Shown here: positions 26,916 to 47,689 of the stretch, in pieces
Layout of the letters: each line of letters begins with the position of its first letter
How positions within the stretch are numbered: position 1 is the first letter of the stretch
DNA from: Terriglobia bacterium
GTDB taxonomy: Bacteria > Acidobacteriota > Terriglobia > Acidiferrales > UBA7541
Direction: 5' to 3'
NCBI GenBank assembly: GCA_020073605.1
Contig: JAIQEW010000002.1
Span: forward strand, 62,001 to 126,000
DNA: 64,000 bases
Made by a program: the position numbers and the translations under genes
Notes under the pieces: model-generated
What the model was told of the DNA's origin: nothing
Database searches by the model: none
Seen by the model: only the letters and a program-made list of their open reading frames with translations

Positions 26916-27779
26916 CTACCGCGCGGCGGCGGCGACCTCTTTCTCAATGGGAGCGCCGATCAGGTTGCCCCACTCGGTCCACGAGCCGTCGTAATTCTTC
27001 ACGTTGCCGTAGCCGAGCAGATACTTCAGGACGAACCACGTGTGGGAGCTGCGCTCGCCGATGCGGCAATAGGCGATCGTTTCGCCGCTCCCGTTGACGC
27101 CTTTCCCCTGGTAGAGCTGCTTCAACTGGTCGGCGGACTTGAAGGTGCCGTCCTCGTTCGCGGCTTGCGCCCACGGAATATTCGCGGCGGTCGGGATGTG
27201 CCCAGCGCGCTGCGCGGTCTCGGACATTCCCGGCGGAGCGATGATTTTCCCGGTGAATTCATCCACGGAGCGAACGTCCACGAGGCGCCCGGCAGTCTTC
27301 CGCTGCACGATCGCTAGAACCTGGTCCTTGTAAGCCCGGAGCGACTCATCCGGCCCGGTGGCGCGGTAGGTCGCCGCGGCGACCTTCGGCGCATCGGCAG
27401 TCAGCGGGCGTTTTTCCTCGAGCCACTTCTTGCGGCCGCCGTTCATCAGGCGCACGTCCTGGTGGCCGTAATACTTCAACTGCCAGAGAGCGTAGGCCGC
27501 AAACCAGTTGTTGTTGTCACCGTAGAGAATAATCGTGGTGTCGTTCGAGACGCCGGATTGCCCAAGCAGCCTCTCAAGCGTGGCCTTATCGATCAGGTCG
27601 CGGCGGATGTTGTCCTGGAGCTGGGTCTGCCAATTCCATCCAACCGCTCCCGCGATGTGGCCCTGATCGTAGGCGGTCGTATCCACGTCCACTTCCACCA
27701 GCCGGACCTTTGGATCACTTGCGTGGTCCGCCACCCATTGCGTCGAAACCAGCACTTCCGGATGCGCATACTCAGACAT
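26916..27779 (-). CDS. Two-domain sulfurtransferase (rhodanese / mercaptopyruvate type)
   Basis: 287 residues, two rhodanese domains. N-terminal: VSTQWVADH, VRLVEVDVDTTAYDQGHIAGAVGWNW. C-terminal domain: RLVDVRSVDEFTGKI, AGHIPTAANIPW, active-site loop CRIGERSSHTWFVL. The active-site pattern CRxGxRSSH is that of thiosulfate sulfurtransferases (SseA/CysA type), which move sulfur to cyanide, thiols or acceptor proteins. ATG at 27779 has GAAGGAGGAAG at about 5 bases. The gene is preceded by a structured leader with terminator, so its expression is probably controlled by premature termination. Convergent with the secreted protein gene; 45-base gap. Confidence 0.93.
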   Translation of the reverse strand: MSEYAHPEVLVSTQWVADHASDPKVRLVEVDVDTTAYDQGHIAGAVGWNWQTQLQDNIRRDLIDKATLERLLGQSGVSNDTTIILYGDNNNWFAAYALWQLKYYGHQDVRLMNGGRKKWLEEKRPLTADAPKVAAATYRATGPDESLRAYKDQVLAIVQRKTAGRLVDVRSVDEFTGKIIAPPGMSETAQRAGHIPTAANIPWAQAANEDGTFKSADQLKQLYQGKGVNGSGETIAYCRIGERSSHTWFVLKYLLGYGNVKNYDGSWTEWGNLIGAPIEKEVAAAAR

Positions 27780-27826: not shown

Positions 27827-27867
27827 AAAACAAAAAGCCCACCAGCCAGCTCTCCTCTGGCGGTGGG
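27827..27867 (-). terminator. Intrinsic terminator in sulfurtransferase leader
   Basis: Minus strand: CCCACC-g-CCAG, 7-base loop, CTGG-ct-GGTGGG, then CTTTTTGTTTT. It ends about 50 bases before the sulfurtransferase ATG and points along the same strand, so it can stop transcription before the gene. Its left arm overlaps element C. Confidence 0.85.
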
Positions 27868-27987
27868 TCCAAGGAATCTCAGGCTCTAACCAGCTTGCTA
27901 GATGCCTCGCCTGCCCGCGCCAGAGGGCACACCGGTGCGACACAGGCAACAGCAACCCTGGGCCGGCCTCTGGCGGCAAATCATCAT
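27868..27987 (-). ncRNA. Candidate riboswitch-like switch RNA (unrecognised family)
   Basis: Element A (27977-27967) GCCGCCAGAGG, B (27926-27918) CCTCTGGCG, C (27863-27854, just beyond) CCGCCAGAGG. A:B and B:C each form 9 uninterrupted pairs and exclude one another. Inside A:B a junction can hold CAGG...CCTG and GCAC-cggt-GTGC hairpins. Between B and C, AGGC-a-TCTA pairs with TAGAGCCT (27881-27907). Pairing B:C would take the left arm of the terminator. Ligand, if any, is not known; no match to SAM, TPP, cobalamin, glycine or T-box motifs was seen. Confidence 0.6.
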
Positions 27988-27993
27988 GGCCGC

Positions 27994-28022
27994 AGGATAC
28001 GCCGGAATGGCCTGCACGGCAA
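27994..28022 (-). promoter_or_regulatory. Promoter in front of the switch RNA
   Basis: TTGCCG (28022-28017), 17 bases, TATCCT (27999-27994), 60 bases after the preceding gene ends. Predicted start about 27987, so the transcript would begin just before element A. Confidence 0.6.
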
Positions 28023-47613: not shown

Positions 47614-47689
47614 TGGCTGGGGCGGTTGGACTCGAACCAACACCGTCCTCATTAACAGTGAGGTGCCCTACCGATTGGACCACGCCCCA
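47614..47689 (-). tRNA. tRNA-Asn (GUU anticodon)
   Basis: 76 nt on the minus strand with CCA encoded. Acceptor TGGGGCG/CGCCCCA (7 bp), D-stem GTCC/GGGC, anticodon arm CCTCA-CTGTTAA-TGAGG with GTT in the loop, T-arm GTTGG-TTCGAGT-CCAAC, and discriminator G. Only tRNA seen in the window. Confidence 0.95.

Follow-up and report, generated by a model that had tools for sequence, protein, structure and literature searches.

A candidate cysteine-sensing leader-peptide attenuator ahead of an acidobacterial sulfurtransferase gene, and related leaders ahead of other operons

The leader of a sulfurtransferase gene in a Terriglobia bacterium is best read as a transcription attenuator of the ribosome-mediated (leader-peptide) kind, with charged tRNA-Cys as the signal sensed, a reading to which we give a probability of about 0.9; translation of a Cys-rich leader peptide very probably decides whether a terminator stops transcription. 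The parts of the leader, their conservation, the covariation of one of its pairings (B:C) and the match between codons and pathway were established by comparison; from these we infer the transcription start, the stalling of the ribosome, and the direction and size of the response. In the mechanism proposed, transcription would start at or next to the ATG of a 29-codon open reading frame (ORF). When Cys-tRNA is scarce, the ribosome would stall on a run of Cys codons, covering segment A and leaving segment B free; free B would then pair with the emerging segment C and enclose hairpin E, so that the terminator would be blocked and the sulfurtransferase gene transcribed. When Cys-tRNA is plentiful, the ribosome would reach the TAG, with B masked or re-paired with A; B being unavailable, C would pair with the right arm of the terminator and transcription would stop.

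The elements concerned are given below in order of transcription; the window is the whole stretch of DNA analysed (64,000 nucleotides), and an asterisk after a peptide marks the stop.

27994..28022, minus strand: promoter-like site, TTGCCG (28022-28017), 17 nt, TATCCT (27999-27994), from the sequence
27898..27987, minus strand: leader ORF, 29 codons plus TAG, MMICRQRPAQGCCCLCRTGVPSGAGRRGI*, from translation; absent from the earlier note on this DNA
27967..27975, minus strand: segment A (region 1), CGCCAGAGG, from a repeat search
27940..27954, minus strand: regulatory codons Cys-Cys-Cys-Leu-Cys (codons 12-16, TGC TGT TGC CTG TGT), from translation
27928..27939, minus strand: small hairpin GCAC-CGGT-GTGC, directly downstream of the Cys run, from conserved pairs in the genus leaders
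27918..27926, minus strand: segment B (region 2), CCTCTGGCG, reverse complement of A and C, from the repeat search
27881..27912, minus strand: hairpin E, AGGC (27912-27909) with GCCT (27884-27881), enclosed by B:C, from pair counts
27854..27862, minus strand: segment C (region 3), CGCCAGAGG, overlapping the terminator left arm, from the repeat search
27827..27867, minus strand: intrinsic terminator C:D plus T tract, CCCACCGCCAG-AGGAGAG-CTGGC(T)GGTGGG-C-TTTTT, between leader ORF and gene
26916..27779, minus strand: controlled gene, a 287-aa sulfurtransferase with two rhodanese stretches (PF00581) and a Shine-Dalgarno (SD)-like AGGAGG ahead of its ATG

That the switch controls a sulfurtransferase, as the earlier note had it, is borne out by the Rhodanese domains of the gene product. 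Its relatives with solved structures include 1uar ('Rhodanese') and 3hwi ('Thiosulfate sulfurtransferase'), and among named records those closest to it come from Candidatus Acidiferrales and Acidobacteria. The gene is apparently monocistronic, because the next long ORF (26870-25902) lies on the opposite strand. At gathering scores, the sole Rfam match in the 64-kb window is a tRNA (47617-47689, minus strand).

A:B and B:C are 9-nt arms with 100% complementarity, and A and C form a 10-nt direct repeat in the repeat search. By sequence, A, B and C are mutually exclusive partners, and the antiterminator B:C is exclusive with the terminator; when 10000 dinucleotide shuffles of the leader were made, 6 contained such a 9-nt triple. 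The terminator hairpin has 11 pairs and one bulge, followed by the T tract, and a search for its stem pattern (≤3 mismatches) gave a single hit in the window and none in 100 shuffles. A simple consensus terminator scan of the window did not list it, probably because of the bulged T. Two structural claims made earlier stand: A, B and C are mutually complementary with 9 uninterrupted pairs each, exactly so in the repeat search, and C overlaps the left arm of an intrinsic terminator, which we place at 27867-27827. The leader as a whole is no more stable than its own shuffles (z -0.65), and its minimum-energy fold contains the terminator and lacks A:B. The SD of the sulfurtransferase gene is outside the terminator hairpin.

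The leader ORF spans A and B, with A before the Cys run and B between the Cys run and the stop. Because of these positions, A, B, C and the terminator right arm correspond to regions 1-4 in the scheme used for trp-type attenuators. The promoter-like site is the best-scoring one of the 60 nt before the leader ATG, its TATCCT ending 6 nt before that codon; a consensus scan requiring 9 of 12 matches found no promoter ahead of the leader ORF, and no SD-like site precedes this ORF in the window. The ORF is probably leaderless, with the transcript starting at or next to its ATG.

The genus search covered all 20 genomes, of which 18 have a sulfurtransferase ortholog, 16 of them whole or nearly whole in length (L001-L016); in L026 the gene start falls in an assembly gap, and L111 is truncated. 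The two other genomes gave no sulfurtransferase match (G016, 55% complete) or a distant match only (G017). Ahead of the gene, 18/18 leaders have an ATG ORF that contains Cys, segment B, altered in places, and a terminator, and the sequence farther upstream differs among these 18 genomes. Three or more Cys within eight codons were found in 17/18, the remaining one (L003 by its peptide) having two. In all leaders except L010, the distance from the end of the best promoter-like site to the ATG is 6-10 nt (17/18; 13.9% of shuffles), and an SD-like motif stands before 1/18 leader ORFs versus 17/17 main ORFs with a visible start. The number and position of Cys vary among the leaders while Cys richness is constant. 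The frame in which the ORF passes through B is a different one in L003 and L111, yet the nucleotides of B are largely kept, which points to constraint on the RNA.

Covariation was tested in an 18-row alignment of the genus leaders. With statistics that all ignore the kinship of the genomes, the covariation score of B:C plus hairpin E was reached by 0 of 500 shuffles, and 12 cells had changed on both sides (shuffled mean 5.8; reached by 1 of 500); the count of pair types was unremarkable (132 of 500). In hairpin E, 67.5% of cells are paired, with both-side changes in 3 of 7 pairs. Adding the GCAC/GTGC hairpin gave 15 both-side-changed cells (0 of 500) and a score reached by 3 of 500, and this hairpin alone, with 88.9% of cells paired, showed no covariation excess over shuffles. 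Across the 18 leaders 93.4% of the terminator stem cells are paired; the complete terminator form (A:B + E + C:D) showed no covariation above shuffles, and A:B showed none in pair counts, being nearly lost in L009 and L111 (4 and 3 of 10 pairs). In anchored 9-10-nt registers B:C was better within species (1.8% of label shuffles as good; longest run 11%), and A:B was not better within than between species (74%; longest run 26%); when the windows are widened, own A:B pairs are favoured by energy (0.14% of 10000 shuffles). B:C is imperfect in several leaders, its longest run being 4 pairs in L003, L006 and L111.

With a ribosome modelled on the Cys run, C paired upstream with a mean P of 0.95, versus 0.50 with the upstream part shuffled; L003, L006 and L111 were weak in this model (12-25% of shuffles as high). 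With the ribosome at the stop codon, C:D formed in 18/18 leaders (P 0.67-1.0). The covariation of B:C with E and the conserved terminator support the termination/antitermination switch described in the earlier note, and the same covariation favours B:C as its ON form. The proposed OFF form, A:B, fared unevenly: exact in the window and favoured by the wider-window energies, it finds no backing in pair counts or in the 9-nt register. The covariance check that had been suggested was likewise divided, with covariation in B:C plus E and no excess in A:B or the terminator-form structure.

Relatives of the leader precede many other genes. A profile of the 18 genus leaders (R1) matched 19/20 genus genomes at E ≤ 1 and 72/89 family genomes at E ≤ 0.01; several matches in one genome were frequent. 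We chose 60 further R1 matches, mostly with good E-values and none at the genus sulfurtransferase (L180-L239; 20 genus, 40 family), and typed their first genes by Pfam on representatives and by tblastn with these. The first genes were cysD(+cysN) in 24 leaders, of sulfite/nitrite-reductase type in eight, ilvB in five, of siroheme-synthase type in three, and aspartokinase, asd and Porin_5 in two each, one Porin_5 gene being followed by an NMT1-type gene; a sulfurtransferase-like stretch (L208), a sulfate-type binding protein, an NMT1-type binding protein and TauE occurred once each, and ten were without assignment. Sulfur-type first genes thus number 41/60, where NMT1, TauE and Porin_5 are so classed by family names and company. 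An ORF with at least three Cys in eight codons is present in 68/78 leaders (the 18 plus the 60); the corresponding figures are 1/78 for the reverse strand and 5.0% for shuffles. Over the leaders, Cys is encoded by TGT 251 times and by TGC 104 times.

Ahead of ilvB, four of the five leaders encode Ile-Val-Val-Val, as in MNTITNLSRLTLGIVVVRLVFASRPGGHH* from the window's own genome; the fifth, L196, has six Val without that run (MRVHVNAEGTARVGLGSVPVALVRAPWPGGLD*). The two aspartokinase leaders have Thr codons, MSTTSTTTTSTILASGAWRNS* and MSIISTTTKKTISASGAWRNT*, for which ATGs further upstream in the same frame are alternative starts, and the asd leaders hold a mixture of Cys, Thr and Met. As judged from the sequences, the regulatory codons match the pathway: Cys for sulfur genes, Ile/Val for ilvB and Thr for aspartokinase. 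Leaders of exactly 29 codons precede the sulfurtransferase, cysDN (MTLLLPSACCTCCSPTQMCASSGAQGFTS*) and ilvBN in the own genome. In five genus cysD leaders B and C have changed together (e.g., L189, CTCCGGGGC with GCCCTCGGAG), and a sixth, L182, has the usual letters. Over 77 leaders, L191 being left out for want of a recognisable C, own B:C was stronger than in 10000 of 10000 label shuffles. By group, own B:C was not stronger than cross-pairs in the sulfite-reductase leaders (-14.2 own; -15.1, -15.6 cross) and not clearly stronger in the asd leaders (-16.4 own; -17.3, -15.4 cross).

We lean slightly towards a broader view of this family, in which an attenuator chassis of the Acidobacteriota's own (a ~29-codon leader with a B-E-C-D module) would have been copied to many operons and re-specified by codon exchange (Cys, Ile/Val, Thr, perhaps His), the ribosome thus coordinating a cysteine regulon from sulfate assimilation and siroheme synthesis to the sulfurtransferase and, in one family, an encapsulin operon. 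For this one family of leaders the analysis proposes a sensor and its likely signal, and names operons that would be its targets. One RNA chassis with different codons would be a natural series for how attenuators gain new specificities, and unknown operons such as the encapsulin operon could be assigned to cysteine control from sequence only.

Other explanations of the leader fare less well. An ending like SSGAGRL is common to many of the leader peptides and could speak for an arrest peptide or a translation-rate sensor, in which the nascent peptide or general slow translation, not Cys-tRNA shortage, would stall the ribosome. L003 and L111, however, read this ending in another frame with its nucleotides kept, the Cys residues vary in number and position while Cys richness stays, and the codons change with the pathway of the gene; we regard such a sensor as improbable. 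Slightly less probable again is that the leader peptide controls translation of the main gene by occluding its ribosome-binding site, or acts through Rho-dependent termination, the hairpin being secondary. Mycobacterial polycysteine leaders act on translation, according to two reports (PMC9031893, PMC13236596), but here the leader ORF is separated from the gene by a strong terminator and T tract, with 93.4% of stem cells paired, and this terminator does not include the SD of the main gene.

The earlier note preferred a riboswitch, that is, an aptamer closed by A:B that would sense a sulfur compound. The sequence-level exclusivity of A, B and C would suit such a device, as would the hairpin between A and B, since of the two inner stems drawn in that note GCAC/GTGC is conserved in 18/18 genus leaders (3 or 4 of 4 pairs). 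The other, CAGG/CCTG, has all 4 pairs in 1/18, the window's own leader. Moreover, the A-B interval is coding, with Cys codons in frame with the ATG of the ORF in 18/18 leaders; this 3' module is also found ahead of ilvB or aspartokinase, there with Val or Thr codons; and an Rfam scan of the leader returned no fitting family and two chance-level matches only. A metabolite-binding aptamer is therefore very unlikely, and it is the note's own alternative, a leader-peptide mechanism, that the Cys ORF, its conservation and the codon-pathway match support. Scarcely credible is a simple terminator belonging to the upstream gene (28787-28083), the complementarity being due to chance: this ORF does lie on the leader's strand and ends ~220 nt before the terminator, but the element accompanies the sulfurtransferase in 18/18 genus genomes with differing upstream sequence, recurs before other operons, and contains a triple that arises in just 6 of 10000 shuffles.

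The preferred reading, a Cys-tRNA attenuator, places the leader beside several known systems, and features of the attenuator class are present: clustered codons for the gene-linked amino acid, and an antiterminator exclusive with an intrinsic terminator. The enterobacterial trp, his, thr, leu and ilv attenuators work by pairing of regions 1:2, 2:3 and 3:4 and encode a peptide rich in the amino acid of the pathway; their leader peptides are SD-led, and their leader sequences are not known to be related from one amino acid to another. The amino-acid-rich peptide and, by position, the layout of the regions are shared, with mixed evidence for the 1:2 pairing (A:B), whereas the acidobacterial leaders use one chassis with different codons. 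Mycobacteria have polycysteine leaderless short ORFs, the original study of which is reportedly that of Canestrari (2020).

Closest in mechanism is the uORFC-8-2 motif ahead of cysS in Rhodobacterales, which is described as a short ORF with tandem Cys codons, alternative stems and an intrinsic terminator with a U run, and for which ribosome-mediated attenuation by Cys-tRNA is proposed (PMC8632094). Both systems join a Cys-codon ORF to an intrinsic terminator; compared with the acidobacterial leader by description, uORFC-8-2 differs in its phylum, in preceding cysS only and in having two Cys codons (positions 14, 15). Closest at the sensor, judged here by sequence, are the mycobacterial ORFs, leaderless and with a Cys run before cysteine-metabolism genes, at several loci that respond together (PMC9031893, PMC9094748, PMC13236596). 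No conserved terminator hairpins were found in mycobacterial cys leaders, according to another report (PMC1262725). Though the sensor is alike, the acidobacterial leader is not classed with these ORFs, whose read-out is described as translational, because it has a conserved intrinsic terminator. Leader-gene spacing is treated in PMC4833913. Our literature search, with most subscription journals outside its scope, found no title about this leader element. The mechanism is of a known kind; as far as searched, the lineage, an intrinsic terminator joined to a leaderless Cys ORF, the chassis with different codons per pathway, and the regulon look new.

The reach of the 3' module was followed with a second model, R2, built from 51 modules including three of the own genome. 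Six matches below E 1e-4 were found in that genome; those at the leaders of the sulfurtransferase, cysDN and ilvBN match by construction, because the model was built from them, and the others are L279, L278 and L280. At L279 an ORF that starts with GTG and contains Cys-Cys precedes a tetrapyrrole methylase. L278 (G000:C18:9200-12650) is a His-rich leader, MKLLRAHHSHHHHVNPCPRRCG*, before a PRA-CH (hisI-type) gene. L280 (G000:C6:86931-87025) has no ORF rich in one amino acid and was therefore taken as a false positive. R2 matched 87/299 genomes of the class at E ≤ 1e-8, 57/396 of the phylum at E ≤ 0.001, and 1/38 outside Acidobacteria, hand-picked by record title from loci of sulfurtransferase relatives, by one weak match (E 7.5e-4). 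The weak phylum-level matches, partly other attenuators or plain terminators, were not counted as members. They include Trp, Leu and Met/Cys leaders, several before fitting genes, which suggests that attenuation may be common in the phylum, a statement that we do not make for the same chassis.

Outside the genus, 43 genomes of the family had a match to the sulfurtransferase gene, and in at least 17 of these an R1 match lies directly upstream of it (lists compared by hand). Among the first 30 loci, 13/13 sulfurtransferase orthologs outside the genus were without the 3' module; L035, also an ortholog outside the genus, has it (61 bits). The leader of L034 (isolate gp2 AA84 contig) looks decayed: it matches the module weakly, its Cys codons are few and an intact Cys ORF is missing. 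Upstream of the distant orthologs L022-L025 and L027 are other Cys-rich ORFs without the module (endings CSCSGGR*, GCCCR*, FCCC*), and the Williamsia and Mycobacterium loci L105 and L107 have similar endings. To judge by these ORFs, the Cys leaders of this sulfurtransferase are of more than one make.

One family of the phylum search, f11 (L281, L282, L286, L287, L288), has a Cys leader with a 3'-module match before a 106-aa rhodanese and an SrpI-like type 2A encapsulin gene, a hint of a sulfur-linked encapsulin shell under cysteine control. Five or six consecutive Cys occur in leaders before a 1-Cys peroxiredoxin-type gene (L307, L315, L316). In other Acidobacteriota, Trp- or Leu-rich leader ORFs stand before terminators (L291, L302, L305, L308, L309, L317); among these Trp/Leu-type leaders, L309 precedes an anthranilate synthase gene and L305 an HMGL-like gene.
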